Shown here: piece by piece, positions 2,776 to 48,443 of the stretch
Layout of the letters: every line of letters begins with the position of its first letter
Numbering within the stretch: position 1 is the first letter of the stretch
Assembly: GCF_002196705.1 (NCBI RefSeq)
Contig: NZ_NADJ01000033.1
Location: 124,001-188,000, forward strand
Origin: Desulfosporosinus sp. FKB
Lineage (GTDB): Bacteria; Bacillota; Desulfitobacteriia; Desulfitobacteriales; Desulfitobacteriaceae
Length of the DNA stretch: 64,000 nucleotides
Direction of reading: 5' to 3'
Translations under genes and position numbers: made by a program
The notes under the pieces: model-generated
The model's database searches: none
What the model was told of the DNA's origin: nothing
Seen by the model: the letters and a program-made list of their open reading frames with translations, nothing else

Positions 2776-4103
2776 GTAAGCCAGTGGTAGCAATTGTCGG
2801 ACGTCCTAATGTTGGCAAATCGACTCTTTTTAATCGTATAGCCGGAGGGCTTGTGGCAATTGTCGAAAATAAACCTGGAGTAACGAGAGATCGTCTCTAT
2901 CGGGATGCTGAGTGGTTGGGCCGCAAATTTGCCTTAATTGATACTGGAGGCATCGAGTTTAGAGCTGAAGGTACGCCTATTGCTTCACAGATGCGCAGAC
3001 AAGCAGAGATTGCTGTGGAAGAGGCTGATGTGGTGATTTTTGTTGTGGATGCCCAATTGGCGCCCACGCCTGATGACGATTTGATTGCGCGTACTCTGCG
3101 GCGCTCAGGGAAACCGGTGTTGTTGGCAGCAAATAAAGTTGAAAACTTTGAAAAGGCTGAGGGGCAACTCTACGACTTTCTGGCCCTGGGGCTTGGGGAA
3201 CCGATTCCTGTTTCAGCGGTACATGGCATGAACATGGGAGACCTGTTGGATATGGTTGTTTCCAATTTGCCGAAAAATCCTGAGGAGGATTATGACCCCG
3301 ATGTTATACGGATTTCTGTTATTGGACGACCTAATGTGGGTAAATCGTCTTTAGTCAATAATATGCTGGGAAAAGAACGAGTCATAGTCAGCAACATTCC
3401 CGGAACGACCCGAGATGCTATCGATACCCCTTTTGAGTATGAAGGAAAACATTATATTCTCATTGATACTGCCGGTATGCGCCGCAAAGGCCGTATCGAG
3501 GAACTAACAGAACAATACAGCGTTGTGCGTTCCTTACATGCAGTTGACCGTTCCGATGTGATCCTTATGCTGCTTGATGCCACAGAAGGGGTTACAGAAC
3601 AAGATAAAAAAATAGCGGGATATGCCCATGATGCCGGTAAGGCTATCGTTATCGTGGTCAATAAGTGGGACCTTGTGGAAAAAGACGAGAAGACCATTAA
3701 CAAATTCGAAAAGATGATTCGCGAAGAATTGGGCTTTTTGCAATATGCGCCTACGATGTTCATTTCTGCAAAAACCGGGCAGCGTGTGCATAAAATATTA
3801 GAGCTCGTTGATTTTGTAACCGAGCAGAATTCTACGCGAGTGGCAACAGCAACCTTAAACACCTTGGTGCGCGAATGGCTTCATCTTAATCCCCCCCCAA
3901 CGGATAAAGGGCGGAGATTAAAGGTGCTTTATCTTACACAGGCAAGTGTAAAACCTCCTACGTTTGTTTTCTTTGTCAATGACCCGGAATTGATGCATTT
4001 TTCCTATAAGCGCTATTTAGAGAATCAGATGCGGAAACATTTCGGATTTGAAGGAACACCGATCCGAATTGTTGTGCGCCAAAAAGATGAAGAGAAGGAG
4101 TAA
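2772..4103 (+). CDS. der: ribosome biogenesis GTPase Der (EngA)
   Basis: A 443-aa protein with two tandem Era-like GTPase domains: G1 motifs GRPNVGKST (about residues 10-18) and GRPNVGKSS (about 186-194), DTGG and DTAG G3 motifs, and NKVE/NKWD G4 motifs. A KH-like domain follows ([10 protein letters not shown] near the end). Der acts in 50S subunit assembly. The start is TTG, overlapping the TGA of the preceding gene (TTGA). Full length for the family. Confidence 0.98.
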
Positions 4104-10544: not shown

Positions 10545-10659
10545 AGTTCAGTAAGCCCCCCTTGATATCTTAATTTTAATACCATTATGCTGCATTTGCT
10601 TTATCGCTGAAAGGGGTTGCTCCAAATTCGAATGTAATTTTGAACGTTGCAGGGATCTC

Positions 10660-10821
10660 CTAGCTTTTTTTATTACCTTCTGGAGATTCGGGAAATTTGC
10701 TGTTAATAAAACCTAAACCTTTTATAAAAAAACTAATCCCCCAAAGGACAAAGAAGCAAGCAACAAAATCAAAAACGCTTAATACGAGAGCTCCCGAAAA
10801 AGTATCTGGAATGATTGACAC
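10660..10821 (-). CDS. 53-aa membrane peptide, OadG-like gamma subunit candidate
   Basis: GTG at 10821 directly follows the TAA of the OadB-like gene, so the two are coupled. The peptide has one long hydrophobic segment (about residues 11-33) and a Lys/Ser/Pro-rich hydrophilic tail ending in NKKS. Its size, topology and position match the small gamma (OadG/GcdD-like) subunit that anchors Na+-translocating decarboxylases, but sequence similarity is too weak to assert. No other gene fits between the beta subunit and the thioesterase. Confidence 0.65.
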   Translation of the reverse strand: MSIIPDTFSGALVLSVFDFVACFFVLWGISFFIKGLGFINSKFPESPEGNKKS

Positions 10822-37862: not shown

Positions 37863-37901
37863 TATTGTATGGTGGATTTTGACTTTTTGGAGGTGAATGA
37901 A

Positions 37902-38084
37902 ATGAACCGTATAAAAAGTGCGGTACCCATAGTAAATTACCGTTCAGAGGTTGCTTATGCCAACAAACAAAAGCTGTATTTTGATAGCAAACATGGAAAT
38001 GGACGATTTGGCATGATGACAGATACGTTATTTTTTAACAGCGAAGCAACAATAATTAAGCAAAGGATTTTAAAGGAGTTTAGT
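37902..38084 (+). pseudogene. truncated DUF2442 copy fused in frame to adhesin
   Basis: From ATG 37902 the frame reads MNRIKSAVPIVNYRSEV... NGRFGMMTDTLFFN, a diverged copy of the 35903 protein up to about residue 45, then runs without a stop into the adhesin start. RBS TGGAGGT precedes it. The last third of DUF2442 is missing. Confidence 0.6.
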
Positions 38085-41000
38085 ATGATAAAGTTTAAGA
38101 AAAGAAAAATATCATATATTTTTGTGTTAATATTTGTTCTTTCAGCAGTTATAATGCCGAATTTAGCTTATGGAGCTATTGGTAATGCTACTGTGAGTTT
38201 TACAGGTACTGACACAAACAATGTGGGAAGTACATTGCATGATGGTAGTTTAGGTTCAACTGACATTAGTGGAATTCAGTTGGATATTTTTAATGCCAAT
38301 AGAACAGTTCCTGATACTCCAGTAGAATATTTTGGGTTAGGGAATAATTCTAGCACTTATGATTCACCTGTAATTATTCCCAATTACGATCCGGGTACAG
38401 GTATAGCGCCAGATTTCATTGTTATTAAAAGCGATGATGGAAGTGCGTTTGACTTCAAGTCAATATATGTTCTGGATTACCTAGCGAGTGAGCCACAGAT
38501 AAAATTTGAGGGTTTTCGGAATGGTATTTCAACGGGCTCAGTAATTCTTAATATAAATCAAACTGATTATCAGGAGACATTTACTTCAACAAACGGACTA
38601 ACTCCGTCAATATTTCAAAATATTGATGAAGTTAGAATATCCAATCAATATGATGGAGACATGACATACGGTAACTATGTAGGAATTAATAATATACAAA
38701 TTGGCGATCCACCGGATGTAACAAACCCAACGGCAGGAAACAGCGGAACAATCATCCCGAGTAATGCAACGAGCAGCAGTGTGGATTTAAGCTGGGCAGC
38801 AGGAAGTGACAATGTAACAGCAGCAGCGAATTTGCAATACAAGGTGATCTATTCGACCAGTAACAATTTAGGTACAGTAACTAATGCGGAAGCCAATGGA
38901 ACAGTGGCCCAGGACTGGAGTGCCAATCTGACCGATAAACAAGTGACTGGACTAAGTGCCGGCACAACCTACTATTTCAATGTTCTCATCAAAGATGAAG
39001 CCGGAAATGAGAGCGTTTATACAACCGCAACTCAGGTGACAACGGCAGCGCCGGTTGCTTTGCAAAGCATCGCTATCACAACTCCGGCCACGAAGCTCAT
39101 CTACACAGCCGGGGACAGTCTGGACATCAGCGGAATGGTAGTCACAGGGACTTACAGTGATAACAGTACAAAGACCGAGAGTATAACTGCAGCGGATGTC
39201 AGCGGTTTTGACAGCAGTGCGCCTGAGGCCAGGCAGACATTGACCGTAACGGTAGGAGGCAAGAGCACGACTTACACCATCGAGATACAGGCAGCACCGG
39301 TTGCTTTGCAAAGCATTGCCATCACAACTCCGGCGGCGAAGCTCATCTACACTGTCGGGGACAGCCTGGACATCAGCGGAATGGTAGTCACAGGGACTTA
39401 CAGTGATAACAGTACAAAGACCGAGAGTATAACTGCAGCGGATGTCAGCGGTTTTGACAGCAGTGCTCCTGAGACCAGCCAGACATTGACCGTAACGGTA
39501 GGAGGCAAGAGCACAACTTATACCGTCGAGATACAGGCAGCACCGGTTGCTTTGCAAAGCATTGCCATTACAACACCGGCGGCGAAGCTCATTTACACAG
39601 TCGGGGACAGCCTGGACATCAGCGGAATGGTAGTCACGGGGACTTACAGTGATAACAGCACAAAGACCGAGAGCATAACTGCAGCGGATGTCAGCGGCTT
39701 TGACAGCAGGGCTCCTGAGACCAGCCCGACATTGACCGTAACGGTAGGAGGCAAGAGCACGACTTACACCGTCGAGATACAGGCAGCACCGGTTGCTTTG
39801 CAAAGCATTGCCATCACAACACCGGCGGCGAAGCTCATCTACACAGTCGGGGACAGCCTGGACATCAGCGGAATGGTAGTCACAGGGACTTACAGTGATA
39901 ACAGTACAAAGACCGAGAGTATAACTGCAGCGGATGTCAGCGGTTTTGACAGCAGTGCTCCTGAGGCCAGCCAGACATTGACCGTAACGGTAGGAGGCAA
40001 GAGCACAACTTATACCGTCGAGATACAGGCAGCGCCGGTTGCTTTGCAAAGCATTGCCATTACAACACCGGCGGCGAAGCTCATTTACACAGTCGGGGAC
40101 AGCCTGGACATCAGCGGAATGGTAGTCACGGGGACTTACAGTGATAACAGCACAAAGACCGAGAGTATAACTGCAGCGGATGTCAGCGGCTTTGACAGCA
40201 GTGCCCCTGAGGCCAGCCAGACATTGACCGTAACGGTAGGAGGTAAGACCACGACTTACACCATCGAGATACAGGCAGCACCGGTTGCTTTGCAAAGCAT
40301 TGCCATCACAACTCCCGCCGCCAAGCTCGTTTACCCCGTCGGCGCCAGCCTGGGCATCAGCGGAATGATAGTCACGGGGACTTACAGGGATAACAGCACA
40401 AAGACCGAGAGTATATCTGCAGCGGATGGCAGCGGTTTTGACAGCAGTGCTCCTGCGGCCAGCCAGACATTGACCGTAACGGTAGGAGGCAAGACCCCGA
40501 CTGACCCCATCGCGATCCAGGCACCACCGGTTGCCTTGCAAAGCATTGCCATCACAACTCCGGCGGCGAAGCTCATTTACACTGTCGGGGACAGCCTGCA
40601 CATCAGCGGAATGGTAGTCACAGGGACTTACAGTGATAACAATACAAAGACCGAGAGTATAACCACAGCGGATGTCAGCGGCTTTGACAGCAGTGCCCCT
40701 GAGGCCAGCCAGACATTGACCGTAACGGTAGGAGGTAAGACCACGACTTACACCATCGAGATACAGGCAGCACCGGTTGCTTTGCAAAGCATTGCCATCA
40801 CAACTCCGGCGGCGAAGCTCATTTACACAGTCGGGGACAGCCTGGACATCAGCGGAATGATAGTCACGGGGACTTACAGTGATAACAGCACAAAGACCGA
40901 GAGTATATCTGCAGCGGATGTCAGCGGTTTTGACAGCAGTGCTCCTGAGGCCAGCCAGACATTGACCGTAACGGTAGGAGGCAAGAGCACAACTTATACC

Positions 41001-43493
41001 ATCGAGATACAGGCAGCGCCGGTTGCTTTGCAAAGCATTGCCATCACAACACCGGCCGCGAAGCTCATTTACACTGTCGGGGACAGCCTGGACATCAGCG
41101 GAATGGTAGTCACAGGGACTTACAGTGATAACAGCACAACACAGGAAGCAATCACATTAGCTAATGTAACAGGCTTTGACAGCAGTGCCCCTGAGGCCAG
41201 CCAGACATTGACCGTAACGGTAGGAGGTAAGACCACGACTTACACCATCGAGATACAGGCAGCTCCAGTTATCGCAACCCTAGTCAGCATCACAACACCG
41301 TCAGCTATTACCGGAGTAGCCAACGGAACAGCTAAAACAGCGTCGGCCCTGGGACTGCCATCGACAGTGACGATGGTGACTGGTAGTGGAAATGTTCAGG
41401 CGAACGTGACCTGGGATGTAGACTCCTGTAGTTATAACGCGTCTTCAACCAGCGCGCAGACCTTCACGGTCAGTGGGACAGCAACTCTACCGACAGGTGT
41501 GGTGAACACGAATAATGTTCCGCTGACCACCGGCATCAGCGTTGCCGTTAATGCGGCGCAGGCTCCAACCTATGCCCTCACCATCAAAGCAGGGACCGGC
41601 GGAACCATTACGGAAGGTAGCAGCGGCAATTATGCGGCAGGAGACATCATTAGTCTTGCAGTTACCACGAATTCTAATTATAGCTTCAACGGCTGGACTT
41701 CTTCGAACGGGGGAACCTTTGCCAACGCAAACAGTGCAACGACTACCTTTGCAATGCCCATGTGTGCAACTGCCCTTACGGCTACCTTTACCTATAACGG
41801 GGGTAGTGGAGGCGGTGGCGGAAGTGGAAATTCATCAGGCGGTAGTATCCCATCAAGTGGAGGAACAAGCGTTTCTGGCAGTGTCGTTGATGGAACAACT
41901 GGTGCTACTGTTTCCAACCTAACAGGAACTGTAATGACCGACAGAAACGGAAATTATACAGTTTCAATGCAAGCATCTCAAACGGTAACCCTCCAACAGC
42001 CTGACGGAACCACGAGCCCTTTAAGCGATCTGACAAAAGTGAGCTATGAATCAGCAGGGGGAGCGTTATTAAGCGCTTCAGCAAATGGAACTATCAATTT
42101 TGCCAACCTAGCCAAAGGAACAGACAATCAATATAAGATCACCTATGATTTAGGCAACGGACAAACAATTACGCTGGGAACCATGGAAGTCATCGTTTCA
42201 AACGATGGAACTGTCAGTTTAAAATGTACCTTAATAGACCCATATGGCATAATCACGGATGCTGCAACTGGTAAACCGATTGCCGGAGCAAAGGTTACCT
42301 TGTACTATGCTAATACGGAACGCAACAAGACTAATGGCAAAATACCGGACAATGTTGTAACCTTACCGAGCATTAACGGCTTTAAGCCCAATAACAATCA
42401 AAACCCGCAGACCAGTGATGGGAATGGAGCTTATGGTTTTATGGTCTTCCCTGACACGGATTACTACATTGTAGCTTCCAAGGGTGGATATGAATCATAT
42501 ACCAGTCCTACCATATCCGTAGGTCAAGACATCGTTCATTGGGATTTTAAAATGAGTATACCCATCATGGAAGTCAATCGACTGGCAGGGCAAAGCCAGG
42601 TGGATACCGCTTTGGCTATTGCAAAAGCAAACTATACAGGAATGCTTTCCAATGTGGTTCTCACGACCGCAGATAACTATCAAGATGCTTTAGCAGGAAG
42701 TGTCCTGGCTTACAAACTTAATGCACCAATTCTCTTGGTCGGAAGCTCGGAGACTGATCAAGCAAAAGCATTAGATTATATGAAGTTGAATCTTGACCCG
42801 TTAGGAAACGTTTATCTCTTAGGCGGTATAGCAGCAGTCAGTGCTGATATGGAAGCCAAAATCAAAGCAGATGGTTTCAGTAAGATTACCCGCCTGGGCG
42901 GGACGGACGGCAATGATACTTGCGTCAAAATCACCGATCAATTACAGGCCAAGAGCGGAACACCAATTGTGCTGGTCAATGGCGAAAACTATCCGGATGT
43001 TTTATCTATTAGCAGTATTGCTGCTGAAAATCAGTACCCTATCCTTCTAGTTCAAAAAGATGGAATTAGCGATGGAGTCAAGAATGAAATAGCTGCTATT
43101 AAACCAAGTAAGGTCTATATCATCGGAGGAGAAGGGGTTATTAGCTCAGCAGTGGAAAGTCAGGTAGAACAGGTAACATCTTTAGATAAAGCCAATATTG
43201 TGAGAATTGCCGGACAAGATCGCTATGATACCTCCCTGGCTGTCGCCCAATACTTCAACTTATCCGGGCAAAGTGTCTGTATCACCACTGGCAACAATTT
43301 TCAGGATGCACTGGCCGGAAGTGTCTATGCGGCTAATCATAATACCCCGATTATTCTGGCAGATGGCAGCTTGTCTGATCAAGTTGTGAATTATCTGAAG
43401 AGCAAAAAACTGACCGGAGCAACTCTATTCGGAGGCGAGGCCGTCGTGGGCAAGAGCATTGAGCAGCAGCTTAATCAATTGATCGGAAAATAG
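38085..43493 (+). CDS. giant secreted adhesin with Ig-like repeats and CWB2 domains
   Basis: About 1802 aa from ATG 38085 (AAAGGAG 7 bases upstream), starting with a signal peptide (basic MIKFKKRK, hydrophobic core, cut near AYGA). Order: a beta-rich N-domain; a fibronectin III-like domain (about 215-320); nine 82-aa bacterial Ig-like repeats (about 323-1060); another Ig-like domain; an InlB B-repeat-like unit; a Gly/Ser linker; carboxypeptidase-regulatory-like domains; and three cell-wall-binding CWB2 repeats (last about 310 residues, e.g. GQDRYDTSLAVAQYF). CWB2 anchors proteins to anionic wall polymers, so this is a surface protein. The frame is open upstream to 37869 through a DUF2442 remnant. 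Confidence 0.93.
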   Translation: MIKFKKRKISYIFVLIFVLSAVIMPNLAYGAIGNATVSFTGTDTNNVGSTLHDGSLGSTDISGIQLDIFNANRTVPDTPVEYFGLGNNSSTYDSPVIIPNYDPGTGIAPDFIVIKSDDGSAFDFKSIYVLDYLASEPQIKFEGFRNGISTGSVILNINQTDYQETFTSTNGLTPSIFQNIDEVRISNQYDGDMTYGNYVGINNIQIGDPPDVTNPTAGNSGTIIPSNATSSSVDLSWAAGSDNVTAAANLQYKVIYSTSNNLGTVTNAEANGTVAQDWSANLTDKQVTGLSAGTTYYFNVLIKDEAGNESVYTTATQVTTAAPVALQSIAITTPATKLIYTAGDSLDISGMVVTGTYSDNSTKTESITAADVSGFDSSAPEARQTLTVTVGGKSTTYTIEIQAAPVALQSIAITTPAAKLIYTVGDSLDISGMVVTGTYSDNSTKTESITAADVSGFDSSAPETSQTLTVTVGGKSTTYTVEIQAAPVALQSIAITTPAAKLIYTVGDSLDISGMVVTGTYSDNSTKTESITAADVSGFDSRAPETSPTLTVTVGGKSTTYTVEIQAAPVALQSIAITTPAAKLIYTVGDSLDISGMVVTGTYSDNSTKTESITAADVSGFDSSAPEASQTLTVTVGGKSTTYTVEIQAAPVALQSIAITTPAAKLIYTVGDSLDISGMVVTGTYSDNSTKTESITAADVSGFDSSAPEASQTLTVTVGGKTTTYTIEIQAAPVALQSIAITTPAAKLVYPVGASLGISGMIVTGTYRDNSTKTESISAADGSGFDSSAPAASQTLTVTVGGKTPTDPIAIQAPPVALQSIAITTPAAKLIYTVGDSLHISGMVVTGTYSDNNTKTESITTADVSGFDSSAPEASQTLTVTVGGKTTTYTIEIQAAPVALQSIAITTPAAKLIYTVGDSLDISGMIVTGTYSDNSTKTESISAADVSGFDSSAPEASQTLTVTVGGKSTTYTIEIQAAPVALQSIAITTPAAKLIYTVGDSLDISGMVVTGTYSDNSTTQEAITLANVTGFDSSAPEASQTLTVTVGGKTTTYTIEIQAAPVIATLVSITTPSAITGVANGTAKTASALGLPSTVTMVTGSGNVQANVTWDVDSCSYNASSTSAQTFTVSGTATLPTGVVNTNNVPLTTGISVAVNAAQAPTYALTIKAGTGGTITEGSSGNYAAGDIISLAVTTNSNYSFNGWTSSNGGTFANANSATTTFAMPMCATALTATFTYNGGSGGGGGSGNSSGGSIPSSGGTSVSGSVVDGTTGATVSNLTGTVMTDRNGNYTVSMQASQTVTLQQPDGTTSPLSDLTKVSYESAGGALLSASANGTINFANLAKGTDNQYKITYDLGNGQTITLGTMEVIVSNDGTVSLKCTLIDPYGIITDAATGKPIAGAKVTLYYANTERNKTNGKIPDNVVTLPSINGFKPNNNQNPQTSDGNGAYGFMVFPDTDYYIVASKGGYESYTSPTISVGQDIVHWDFKMSIPIMEVNRLAGQSQVDTALAIAKANYTGMLSNVVLTTADNYQDALAGSVLAYKLNAPILLVGSSETDQAKALDYMKLNLDPLGNVYLLGGIAAVSADMEAKIKADGFSKITRLGGTDGNDTCVKITDQLQAKSGTPIVLVNGENYPDVLSISSIAAENQYPILLVQKDGISDGVKNEIAAIKPSKVYIIGGEGVISSAVESQVEQVTSLDKANIVRIAGQDRYDTSLAVAQYFNLSGQSVCITTGNNFQDALAGSVYAANHNTPIILADGSLSDQVVNYLKSKKLTGATLFGGEAVVGKSIEQQLNQLIGK
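39051..41264 (+). repeat. nine tandem 246-bp repeats
   Basis: Nine in-frame units of exactly 246 bp, each encoding an 82-aa Ig-like domain (PVALQSIAITTPAAKLIYTV at the start). Units are nearly identical; the sixth (about 40281-40526) and part of the third carry clustered A-to-C and T-to-G differences. The ninth has a diverged middle. Confidence 0.95.
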
Positions 43494-43637: not shown

Positions 43638-43672
43638 TGAATTAATCAGAGAGAAGGGAGGTTGCGATAATA

Positions 43673-43861
43673 ATGAAAGCTATAAATGAAAAAATTATGA
43701 AGGCGCTGGAAGATGATAAAGAATTAATGCTCAAGATACAAAACGTAGTTAGATTAGCCGTTGAAAAAGAGCTTGTTGATGCTAATATTATTGAAAGTGG
43801 TGAACTTCATAACACAGTTGGCTGTGTAAGTGTTTTGTTTACAATAACTTGCACGTGCTAA
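43673..43861 (+). CDS. class II lanthipeptide precursor
   Basis: 62 aa. A charged helical leader (residues 1 to about 47) precedes a short core ending TVGCVSVLFTITCTC, with Cys51, Cys60 and Cys62 and Ser/Thr at 48, 53, 57, 59 and 61, enough for three (methyl)lanthionine rings. No GG site; cleavage could follow Gly50 or lie earlier. GGGAGG precedes ATG 43673. A terminator-like hairpin and a LanM gene follow directly, which supports the assignment. No close relative comes to mind. Confidence 0.85.
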   Translation: MKAINEKIMKALEDDKELMLKIQNVVRLAVEKELVDANIIESGELHNTVGCVSVLFTITCTC

Positions 43862-43898
43862 AGAGATCAGAATTCAATACTCTGTAAGTTAACTGAAG

Positions 43899-43941
43899 AA
43901 ACTTCCGCATTTTCGAATTAATTAATAAAAAGCGGAAGTTT
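43899..43941 (+). terminator. terminator/attenuator between lanA and lanM
   Basis: 10-bp stem AAACTTCCGC and GCGGAAGTTT followed by TTTTAG. Typical partial terminator giving more precursor than enzyme. Confidence 0.75.
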
Positions 43942-43984
43942 TTTAGTTGATTAAAGTTTAGATTCTTAATAAAGGAGCCAAATA

Positions 43985-46900
43985 ATGTTTTCTAAAAATT
44001 ATTTAAAAGAATTATATGAGAAATCAAGTTTTTTAAATGAAAGTATAGGAGAACAACATTGTCCATTTATTCCTTTATGGATGCAATTCCTCAATAAGGT
44101 TATTGAAAGCACCGAAATTTATTCATTGCAAACTAGAAGGAGCGAGCAGTTATTTGAACAAACTAATCCGATCCCATTTCAAGAGATTTTATCCTTATTT
44201 GTATTTGTGGGTACAGAAGAATTGTTTAAAAAGAATAGCCAAATAATGAACATTTTTTCTAAAAATTCAATACTTGATATGCAGAAGTACCTTTTAAAGA
44301 GTCTTGCAAAAATATCATCTGAAATTTTTTATATTGAATTTTGCGCAAATAATATTCAATATATTAAACGCTTTTTAGCGGAAACTGACGAATTCGAAAA
44401 TGATAGCAATTCTAATATACAGTACAAGAATTTTATTGAAAAAATGCTTCATGGTGGCCGGTTAAAGGATTTTTTTATGGAATACGCTGTATTAGCAAAG
44501 CATCTTTCACAAACTGTATGTCGTTGGGTTGATTTTATGACAGAACTTACATCAATTCTCAAAAAAGATTATAACGAGATAAGTCACATTTTTTTTGAGG
44601 GAAGTGTACAAGGAAAGGTTTTGTCAATGGAATCAGGGTTATCTGACAATCATAATAATAATAAAACAGTAGTGAAATTAACCTTTGAAAATCAAAGAAG
44701 TATTATCTTTAAGCCTAGAAATATCGGTGTGGAAAAAGCATACTATAAACTTCTGGACTTTTTAAATAAAAGAAATTGTGTACTTCGTCAACGGATACTG
44801 AAAATTATTGATGGTGAAACCTACGGATGGATTGAATATGTAGAGCATCTACCTTGTAAAACGCTTGAACAAGTGAGAAATTATTATAGACGTTCAGGAG
44901 CGTTACTATGTATAGTTTATGTCTTTTGCGGATCAGATTTTCATTTAGAAAACATTGTTGCAAGTGGAGAGACGCCCGTTTTAATTGATCTCGAAATGCT
45001 CATAAACAATAATCAAGACTTAAGCAATATCAATTCATGGCTACAAATAGACGATGTATTGAAAAAAAACAACTCTGTTCTTTATACAGGGTTACTTCCA
45101 GTTCCGTATAAAATGCAGGATGGTAAAATATCAGACTTAAGTGGTCTTGGAGGGGAAACGGATGTTGAAACAACTCTAAAAGAATCTATTTGGAAAAACA
45201 TTAATACTGATTCAATGTATGTAGAGATTAAACATATTAAGAATCTTTCATATAAAAATGTTGTTAAATTAAATGGAAAGCCTATTGCCCCAGTAAATTA
45301 TGTTGATGAAATCGCAAAAGGGTTCGAGGAAACATATAGGATATTTATTGAATTAAAAGATGAATTTTTGCAGGAGAAAAGTATTCTACACCTGTTTTCA
45401 CATCAATTGATGCGGTATGTATTTCGAGAGACCAAAAATTACTCTCAACTAATTAAAAATTCTTTAAAGCCTCCATTTATGCGCAATGGAAAGGATTGGA
45501 GTAAAGAACTTGATAGATTTTTCTCTGCCTTACACGTTGGGCTTGAACCTATTCATGAAATTTTAGGATATGAATACCAAGCCATCAATAAATTAGATGT
45601 GCCGTTCATTAGCTATTGGACTGATAGTAAAGATTTGATTCTTGGCCAAAACGTTAGAATCAACAATTATTTTTGTAAAACATCCTTTGATAAATTAAAA
45701 GACAATATCATGAGTTTAAATGAAGAAGACATCCAAAAACAGATAGGTGCAATAAAAAGTTCATACAACATACTAAACGAAATGAAAAACCCTGCTTCTA
45801 ATGTGCCAGATGTATCTCACATAGTTTCGTGCAGCAAAAATAACTTAGAGCAATCCTTTTTTGTTCATGAGGCGGAGAAAATAGCAAAAGAAATCCTGGA
45901 AAACAGAATAGAGTCGTATGGAAGTGTGAACTGGAGTCAGCTTATAGTGTCAAATACACATACTTATATGATAAAAATGATGGGATCTGGCCTATATAGT
46001 GGAAATGCAGGGATTGCAATATTTTTTTCAGCATTAAGTAAAATAGTAAGTAAAACCGATTACCATGGTCTTGCTCGTAAAACGCTTAAACCTATCAGAG
46101 ATTATTTATGCGGAAGATCGGTTCTATCACTTCCCAAAAGGATAAACCTCGGAATGGCCTCTGGTCTTGGAGGAGTAATATACTCCACTGTTTTAGCAGG
46201 AAAATTTTTAGAAGATGATACGTTCAATAAAGAAGCAGTTAATATAATTCCGAAAATATCCAATGAAATCATTGAACAAGACAACATACTTGATATTATA
46301 GGTGGCAGCTCAGGTATGATATTGAGTTTGTTGTCACTTTACAATGAAACAAAAAATGAAGCAACACTTTTAACTGCAATACGCTGTGGAAAACACTTAT
46401 TGAAAAATCGTTCTAAAAGTCAAAATGGCTTGAGGGCATGGAAACATAATATGGTTTTAGCAGTAGATGAACAACCTTTATGCGGGTTTTCACATGGTGC
46501 ATCTGGAATAGCATATGCATTGCTTAAGCTATTTAAGGTTACTGGTATCAAAGAATTTCTTGATGCAGCTGAGGAAGCAATTTTATACGAAGACGGGTTA
46601 ATTTCAGGAGAAATGGAACAATGGCCTGATTTACGAAAAGCGTATACAGGCGATGAAAATAAGAAGCTTTATAATGCTTGGTGTCATGGTGCCGCAGGAA
46701 TTTTGATTACTCGAATGGAAGCACTTTGTTTTCTTAATAAAGAAAACATGATGACAGATATCAATAGAGCTCTTCAAATTATCATAAACATGCCTTCAAG
46801 TGTGGATCACGTATGCTGCGGAACCTATGGGAAGATTGATGTTTTATTGACAGCATCACAAAGGCTTTCCAGACCGGATTTGCAGGAAAAAGCTTTGGAA

Positions 46901-47068
46901 ATGGCCTCATTTACTTATTCTGAAGATAATATGAGAAGCAGATATAACAATTTAGCCAAAGGATATACCAATTTTGGGTTCTTTCAGGGAGTGTCTGGGA
47001 TTGCTTACACAATGTTGAGGCTGTCACATAAGGATGCGATTCCATCTGTGTTGTCATTTGACATTTAG
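43985..47068 (+). CDS. lanM: class II lanthipeptide synthetase LanM (CCG type)
   Basis: 1027 aa. The N-terminal dehydratase domain phosphorylates and eliminates Ser/Thr (KLTFENQRSIIFKPRNIGVEK, then GSDFHLENIVASGETPVLIDLEM). A C-terminal LanC-like cyclase begins near residue 660, with zinc-site Cys900 (WCHGAAG) and Cys944-Cys945 (CCGTYG). The usual CHG is CCG, as in the substrate-tolerant ProcM group (known from the literature). Full length. RBS AAAGGAG. No LanT exporter, protease or immunity gene adjoins. Confidence 0.95.
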   Translation: MFSKNYLKELYEKSSFLNESIGEQHCPFIPLWMQFLNKVIESTEIYSLQTRRSEQLFEQTNPIPFQEILSLFVFVGTEELFKKNSQIMNIFSKNSILDMQKYLLKSLAKISSEIFYIEFCANNIQYIKRFLAETDEFENDSNSNIQYKNFIEKMLHGGRLKDFFMEYAVLAKHLSQTVCRWVDFMTELTSILKKDYNEISHIFFEGSVQGKVLSMESGLSDNHNNNKTVVKLTFENQRSIIFKPRNIGVEKAYYKLLDFLNKRNCVLRQRILKIIDGETYGWIEYVEHLPCKTLEQVRNYYRRSGALLCIVYVFCGSDFHLENIVASGETPVLIDLEMLINNNQDLSNINSWLQIDDVLKKNNSVLYTGLLPVPYKMQDGKISDLSGLGGETDVETTLKESIWKNINTDSMYVEIKHIKNLSYKNVVKLNGKPIAPVNYVDEIAKGFEETYRIFIELKDEFLQEKSILHLFSHQLMRYVFRETKNYSQLIKNSLKPPFMRNGKDWSKELDRFFSALHVGLEPIHEILGYEYQAINKLDVPFISYWTDSKDLILGQNVRINNYFCKTSFDKLKDNIMSLNEEDIQKQIGAIKSSYNILNEMKNPASNVPDVSHIVSCSKNNLEQSFFVHEAEKIAKEILENRIESYGSVNWSQLIVSNTHTYMIKMMGSGLYSGNAGIAIFFSALSKIVSKTDYHGLARKTLKPIRDYLCGRSVLSLPKRINLGMASGLGGVIYSTVLAGKFLEDDTFNKEAVNIIPKISNEIIEQDNILDIIGGSSGMILSLLSLYNETKNEATLLTAIRCGKHLLKNRSKSQNGLRAWKHNMVLAVDEQPLCGFSHGASGIAYALLKLFKVTGIKEFLDAAEEAILYEDGLISGEMEQWPDLRKAYTGDENKKLYNAWCHGAAGILITRMEALCFLNKENMMTDINRALQIIINMPSSVDHVCCGTYGKIDVLLTASQRLSRPDLQEKALEMASFTYSEDNMRSRYNNLAKGYTNFGFFQGVSGIAYTMLRLSHKDAIPSVLSFDI

Positions 47069-47106: not shown

Positions 47107-47247
47107 GTGGTACAGGGCTGGACAAATTACTTCAAACCTGCGGATCAAAAGAACCTGCTCAAAGGTTTGGAGGAATGGATGCGAAGTCGCATACGGATGG
47201 TAACTTGGAAGCAATGTATTAGAAATGGCGTAGATATCTATTTTTAA
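47107..47247 (+). pseudogene. group II intron maturase C-terminal fragment
   Basis: The frame reads VQGWTNYFKPADQKNLLKGL followed by EEWMRSRIRMVTWKQ, the C-terminal maturase (X) region of group II intron reverse transcriptases, then stops at TAA 47247. RT domains and ribozyme are absent. A remnant of a retroelement directly after lanM. Confidence 0.75.
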
Positions 47248-47517: not shown

Positions 47518-47673
47518 TTATAATGTTATTTTTTCGTGGCACTGAAGACAAGTGATTATAATCGAATGATCATAATCACTCATTATTTCAAATCCCTGAA
47601 TTTGACCTTCACCCTCTATGTCCTCCAAAATATTACCTTTATTTCCACATGTGCAGGTAATTGTTAATTCCAT
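47518..47673 (-). CDS. 51-aa zinc-ribbon-like protein
   Basis: From ATG 47673 behind AGAGGAG. Two Cys pairs, CTCGNKG near residue 7 and CLQCHEK near residue 43, suggest a zinc ribbon or rubredoxin-like knuckle; the middle is acidic. Family unknown. On the opposite strand to its neighbours in a region (47248-48029) otherwise empty except for a 23-codon frame at 47452. Confidence 0.6.
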   Translation of the reverse strand: MELTITCTCGNKGNILEDIEGEGQIQGFEIMSDYDHSIIITCLQCHEKITL

Positions 47674-48029: not shown

Positions 48030-48443
48030 ATGATTGAAGAATTAACAAATGAACTTTTATTTTTCTTTAACGGGTTTTCGTCTTGGGAAAATTCAATAGT
48101 ACGAGCAAGTGATTTAACAATTTCAGAGGCCCATGCCCTAGAAGTGTTGGGAGAACACGAAAAAATAAATATGAAAGCTCTAGCGCAAAAACTGGGAGTT
48201 ACGACGGGAACGACCACTGTTAGTGTAGACAGGCTGGAAAAGAAAAATTTAGCGAAACGTGAATCAACACAGGAAGACAGAAGAGTTAATCTGATTACTT
48301 TAACAGAAAACGGCAAAATGGCTTTTGAGGAACATCATAATTATCATATGCAATTAACTGAACAGATGGTTTCCGTTTTGAGCGAAGATGAAATAAGGAA
48401 ATTCCTCGATACTCTTAAAAAGATAAATTTGGAGACTTTTTAA
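48030..48443 (+). CDS. MarR-family regulator
   Basis: 137 aa with a complete MarR winged helix (ALAQKLGVTTGTTTVSVDRL and wing TQEDRRVNLITLTENGK). AAGGAGG precedes ATG 48030. It probably represses a downstream or unlinked transporter; only a tiny membrane peptide follows. Confidence 0.92.
   Translation: MIEELTNELLFFFNGFSSWENSIVRASDLTISEAHALEVLGEHEKINMKALAQKLGVTTGTTTVSVDRLEKKNLAKRESTQEDRRVNLITLTENGKMAFEEHHNYHMQLTEQMVSVLSEDEIRKFLDTLKKINLETF

Follow-up and report, generated by a model that had tools for sequence, protein, structure and literature searches.

CCG-type lanthipeptide synthetases and the locus of Desulfosporosinus sp. FKB

The CCG-type LanM enzymes are usually discussed as cyanobacterial lanthipeptide synthetases that are promiscuous and act on many substrates. 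ProcM and SyncM of picocyanobacteria are bifunctional class II LanMs with a three-Cys (CCG) zinc site which serve about 30-80 precursors, the prochlorosin leader being of the Nif11 type, and which do not require an adjacent dedicated exporter. Loci of filamentous cyanobacteria, including those of Nostoc sp. ATCC 53789 (pNsp_b, L007) and Scytonematopsis (L018), have precursors with Nif11 or NHLP leaders, and several contain C39 exporters and HlyD. Haloarchaeal clusters (Halobiforma, Halocatena) combine the CCG zinc site with short non-Nif11 leaders and Cys-rich cores. Each locus has several precursors, and the ABC transporters encoded close by contain no C39 domain; several short Cys-rich precursor candidates at haloarchaeal CCG loci are unannotated and have a shared leader (e.g., MSTQQASFGMAHKQRDSELK...), being located at L025:1675-2562 and 10554-10787 and at L026:2428-2598 and 3807-4007. 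Class II lanthipeptides, haloarchaeal CCG enzymes and clusters without dedicated transport are already known (PMC10027976, PMC10783134), export without dedicated transporters has been suggested in some strains (PMC10783134), and a solitary LanM-type gene, CA_C0082 of Clostridium acetobutylicum, is known from an anaerobe without other lanthipeptide genes (PMC10301443); the gene pair described here therefore belongs to a known kind, within which it is unusually isolated.

The window, the whole stretch of 64,000 nucleotides that was analysed, comprises bases 124001-188000 of a 312,440-base contig of Desulfosporosinus sp. FKB (genome of 5.12 Mb in 40 contigs). Inspection of its open reading frames (ORFs) revealed the presence of both genes proposed in an earlier note on this DNA, at the positions given there: lanA, encoding a precursor of 62 aa (43673..43861, + strand), and lanM, encoding a class II lanthipeptide synthetase of 1027 aa (43985..47068, + strand). 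The precursor gene lies upstream, with 123 nt between its stop and the start of lanM, and ribosome-binding sites were read directly from the sequence for both genes (AAGGGAGG at 43654..43661 and AAGGAG at 43972..43977, both + strand). The earlier reading of the locus, as an orphan lanthipeptide of class II paired with a LanM of CCG type, was borne out, and the enzyme groups with other CCG enzymes.

The encoded LanM shares with ProcM and SyncM the class II bifunctional architecture, the three-Cys zinc site and a setting in which no adjacent dedicated exporter is required; however, one precursor rather than about 30-80 was found, its leader does not belong to the Nif11 type and the host is of Bacillota type. 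Neither of the hallmarks of prochlorosins, a Nif11-type double-Gly leader and many precursors in one genome, was found in searches for family matches up to E = 1 and for similar precursors up to E = 10. The likeness to the ProcM group drawn in the earlier note stands with respect to the zinc site and the clade, but a close tie to ProcM biology is not supported because the leader is not of Nif11 type. The loci of filamentous cyanobacteria share 33-35% LanM identity and an identical zinc motif with the present one, which has neither their leader types nor their C39 exporters and HlyD. The haloarchaeal clusters resemble it in zinc site, short non-Nif11 leader and Cys-rich core, whereas their ABC transporters and additional precursors have no counterpart here and their cores and leaders are unrelated to LanA. 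CA_C0082 has no zinc ligands, dehydratase residues or precursor, all of which are kept here. The present LanM is a deep outlier of the CCG clade in an unrelated host and is paired with a single short precursor; such a minimal pair allows one to ask whether the CCG site alone means substrate promiscuity and what becomes of a LanM product in a genome without a C39 exporter and, if it is only a relic, it documents the erosion of lanthipeptide clusters after transfer.

The LanM synthetase and its relatives

Regarding domain structure, LanM matches TIGR03897 with 824.8 bits (cut-off 304) over profile positions 6-931 of 932, and has the dehydratase DUF4135 (PF13575, residues 167-541) fused to the LANC_like cyclase (PF05147, residues 665-1023), an arrangement and a length in keeping with LanMs of about 900-1200 aa. 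Compared by sequence with solved structures, it matches LicM2 (6st5, E 1.5e-94) and CylM (5dzt, E 1.5e-38). The residues needed for phosphorylation and elimination are known from mutagenesis of CylM (PMC4550811), and when mapped onto LanM all of them are kept (D221, H223, K243, D318, H320, N323, D335, R477, and T483). In the cyclase, H837 and the zinc ligands C900 (46682-46684), C944 (46814-46816) and C945 (46817-46819; the three spanning 46682..46819, + strand) were detected in the alignment columns and a motif table. The zinc site reads WC(900)HG ... HVC(944)C(945)G; column 945 is C in other members of the CCG clade and H in CHG-type LanMs; with Cys as third ligand in place of the His of CHG-type enzymes, LanM is of CCG type. 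Judged from its sequence, the protein passes as a LanM in all tests made, and both motif and tree mark it as CCG type. Structure prediction (11 sequences) reached a mean pLDDT of 58 and a pTM of 0.44, too poor for use.

LanM was not detected in any of the 45 other family genomes searched (45 species, 29 of them of the same genus). A class-wide search of 83 genomes revealed one other LanM match, of 22% identity, and a phylum-wide search of 398 genomes two, which are CHG-type or divergent. The nearest sequences in all searches were cyanobacterial CCG LanMs with 33-35% identity over nearly the full length, in a sample that is cyanobacteria-heavy partly because two of the three scan queries were from Nostoc; in the plasmid search, which was without that query bias, Nostoc and haloarchaea were again near the top. 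Neither the species genomes, searched with peptide patterns from the single sequence, contained a close relative of LanM, nor did the viral contigs contain a LanM, and in a phage collection the one LanM found was distant (23.5% identity) and came from a record that is unverified and carries no annotation. In maximum-likelihood trees, from which ProcM itself is absent, LanM joins the cyanobacterial/haloarchaeal CCG clade with 100/100 support, whether or not the haloarchaeal rows are included. It forms a long branch of its own, 1.6-1.9 changes per column away from the CCG enzymes sampled, and the length of this branch could reflect relaxed constraint.

Among the cyanobacterial LanMs there is a well-supported subclade (L008:7740-11000, L014:8659-12000, L015:8728-11976, and L024:5707-8922) in which the cyclase His and the zinc ligands are lost (A stands in the column of C900, W in that of C945 and, in L024, additionally M in that of C944), while all dehydratase residues but one (His-to-Gln or similar) are kept. 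From these residues, the four enzymes are possibly dehydratase-only LanMs located beside Nif11 genes.

The LanA precursor and its missing partners

LanA reads MKAINEKIMKALEDDKELMLKIQNVVRLAVEKELVDANIIESGELHNTVGCVSVLFTITCTC (62 aa) and has the make-up of a lanthipeptide precursor, a short ORF adjoining the synthetase gene with a Ser/Thr- and Cys-containing core after a leader. The leader covers approximately residues 1-47 to 1-51, and the C-terminus (TVGCVSVLFTITCTC) contains three TxxC units in the last 15 residues, TVGC (T48-C51), TITC (T57-C60), and TCTC (T59-C62). Among the 421 ORFs of 30-120 aa in the window, LanA is the only one whose last 20 residues contain three [ST]xxC; this pattern occurred in one of the 12,363 ORFs from 20 simulated windows, and the TxTCxC ending in none of them. 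The order TxGC ... TxTCxC resembles ring B, the hinge and the interlocked rings D/E in the nisin sequence. With respect to the nisin ring layout (PMC10257480), T48-C51 looks like ring B and the TITCTC spacing is that of the interlocked rings D/E. Nisin, however, is a class I lanthipeptide made by a different synthetase, LanA has no counterpart of ring A or C, and its locus is without immunity and export genes; the likeness is one of spacing only, a lead and not homology.

No Pfam or NCBIfam family matched LanA up to E = 1, and no significant relation of its leader to Nif11, NHLP, haloarchaeal or Bacillus leaders was found; the best match was an NHLP leader, and with 17 of 500 shuffles as good this is not significant over 19 comparisons. 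A close relative of LanA was not found in the genomes searched. A match at E 0.005 among the 398 phylum genomes was rejected since it contains two internal stops, the plasmid search returned noise only (E 4-9), and in viral contigs a single 16-residue stretch was found and judged to be chance. Peptidases of the C39 type recognize leaders with the consensus L(-12)-x3-E(-8)-L(-7)...double Gly (PMC6363468), which was tested as L(-12)xxxE(-8)L(-7)...G(-2)[GAS](-1). With E44-L45 set at -8/-7, LanA has I40 at -12 and G50 at -2, in agreement with the C39 register, but C51 at -1, and Cys at -1 does not make a standard C39 site (G-C instead of G-G/A/S). C51 is a leader or a core residue according to where the peptide is really cut.

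Between the two genes, a hairpin followed by a T-run (AACTTCCGC...GCGGAAGTTTTTT, 43896..43944, + strand) was detected as inverted repeat I2 with arms of 18 nt and folds at -27 kcal/mol (shuffle mean -17.1, z -3.3); Rfam gave only a sub-threshold plant miRNA match over it, which is implausible. In lantibiotic operons, hairpins between lanA and lanM are commonly partial terminators. The hairpin and T-run here are likely to be a leaky terminator lowering lanM relative to lanA, as suggested by analogy with such operons.

Regarding partner genes, the earlier observation that no exporter, protease, immunity gene or second precursor lies nearby agrees with the ORFs of the window and can be extended to the whole genome. 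LanM is the sole LanC-like gene of the genome; neither Peptidase_C39 (the same search being positive in 8 of 14 control genomes) nor Nif11 (up to E = 1) was detected genome-wide, and without a C39 peptidase there is no standard LanT. Nor does the window contain any other dedicated exporter, with or without immunity genes, that would make it a complete class II cluster. The idea that further precursors may exist elsewhere in the genome was not supported: besides the negative Nif11 result, an own-genome similarity search to E = 10, which precursors with an unrelated leader would escape, returned LanA alone. The suggestion that distant genes may serve the pair can be retained for generic transporters and proteases only. 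Subtilase (S8) matches are present on other contigs only, so that a non-dedicated protease is possible.

Origin of the pair and fate of its product

Downstream of lanM, 38 nt past its stop, lies a remnant of the C-terminus of a group II intron maturase (47107..47247, + strand), which comprises 37 aa of the GIIM domain (PF08388, E 2e-9; positions 317-352 of 353 in TIGR04416), is truncated at both ends and occurs as a single copy in the genome; no group II intron RNA was matched in Rfam. The GC content of lanM is 31-36%, compared with approximately 37-48% for most of the window. The low GC and the maturase scrap point to a cassette that was gained horizontally and is possibly truncated, and from the absence in relatives, the GC content and the mobile debris we infer a foreign origin of the pair; the simplest reading is that of foreign gain, perhaps accompanied by loss on the side of the exporter. 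A MarR-family regulator gene (48030-48443) approximately 1 kb further on is a second copy, with a 91%-identical copy on another contig (C5), and the gene is conserved in 19 of 30 genus genomes. No empty site was recovered through MarR synteny, the neighbourhood of the window copy differing from that in relatives, and the region around the pair is strain-variable.

On this sequence evidence we favour, with reasonable though by no means full confidence, a horizontally acquired lanA-lanM pair that belongs to the CCG branch and is catalytically intact, and whose product would have no dedicated export, and with almost the same confidence we regard the pair as probably active. LanM would bind the LanA leader, phosphorylate Ser/Thr residues of the core and then eliminate the phosphate to give Dha/Dhb, and the three-Cys zinc site would promote addition of Cys thiols to form up to three small methyllanthionine TxxC rings. 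Rings are predicted at T48-C51, T57-C60, and T59-C62; the second and third would interlock, spaced as rings D/E of nisin are. The stretch T48-C62 contains up to five Ser/Thr residues. As there is a G-C at the leader site and no C39 exporter in the genome, the modified peptide would either remain leader-bound in the cell or rely on non-dedicated proteases and ABC transporters for its maturation and export. A bolder version, which we regard as rather doubtful, is that of a self-sufficient two-gene system which may have dispensed with the C39 exporter, the double-Gly site having become G-C and the peptide acting inside the cell, or with its leader on, or via a housekeeping exporter, the whole being a mobile cassette in one species of the family.

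Among the rival explanations, a decaying remnant of a lanA-lanM-lanT cluster is possible but unlikely. According to this explanation the exporter was lost recently through the group II intron and a deletion downstream, the enzyme is intact because the loss is recent, and the system delivers no product now. The position directly after lanM, which holds the C39 exporter gene in the closest exporter-bearing loci (L007, L027, and L029-L031), is here occupied by the maturase scrap, and the G-C off the C39 consensus in a genome devoid of C39 fits with such a loss; however, both ORFs are intact, no catalytic residue has been lost, the ribosome-binding sites and the hairpin are still present, and some related CCG-clade loci are likewise without a nearby C39 gene. 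An assembly gap or contamination, by which lanT would be absent from the draft only or the contig would be foreign, was named in the earlier note, as far as a gap is concerned, as what would refute its reading. The assembly is indeed a 40-contig draft with a contamination estimate of 2.52%, but its completeness score is 100% and, because the pair lies approximately 168 kb inside the 312-kb contig with uninterrupted sequence on both sides and no C39 domain was detected assembly-wide, this explanation is to be considered highly improbable.

Two further explanations concern the role of the enzyme. A diversity system like that of ProcM, with a single promiscuous LanM acting on several scattered precursors, would be in line with the CCG zinc site and the clade, CCG enzymes having been linked with many precursors (PMC10027976), but the genome-wide precursor search (to E = 10, which would miss quite different leaders) and the Nif11 search (to E = 1) speak against it and we consider it improbable. 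Recruitment of LanM to a non-lanthipeptide role, with the small ORF being incidental, has a precedent in CA_C0082, a LanM-like gene that stands alone and has a regulatory phenotype (PMC10301443); in the homologues of CA_C0082 (670-728 aa), however, the zinc ligands and dehydratase residues that are all kept here are missing, and a Thr/Cys-rich precursor gene lies directly upstream of lanM, so that such a role appears very improbable.

Regarding other genes in the window, a 51-aa ORF at 47518-47673 (- strand; MELTITCTCGNKG...ITCLQC), zinc-ribbon-like with CxC...CxxC and without a Pfam match, has the hexapeptide TITCTC in common with the lanA core. This is probably a coincidence because there is no DNA repeat, and the idea of a core copied from or shared with this small CxC ORF was dropped for the same reason. 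Upstream of lanA, a surface-protein-like gene (37869-43493, 1874 aa) encodes eight Big_3 repeats, three CWB2 cell-wall binding repeats and a fibronectin-like part, and the 693-aa ORF antisense to it (38952-41033) is an artefact of these repeats. It adjoins a gene for a phage tail-collar domain protein (PF07484, 37122-37754), beside which no other phage gene was seen. Between 31001 and 33000, the GC content rises to 55-63% over a large regulator gene of LuxR type (MalT-like), compared with approximately 40% in the surrounding sequence, which suggests that this gene, too, is foreign.
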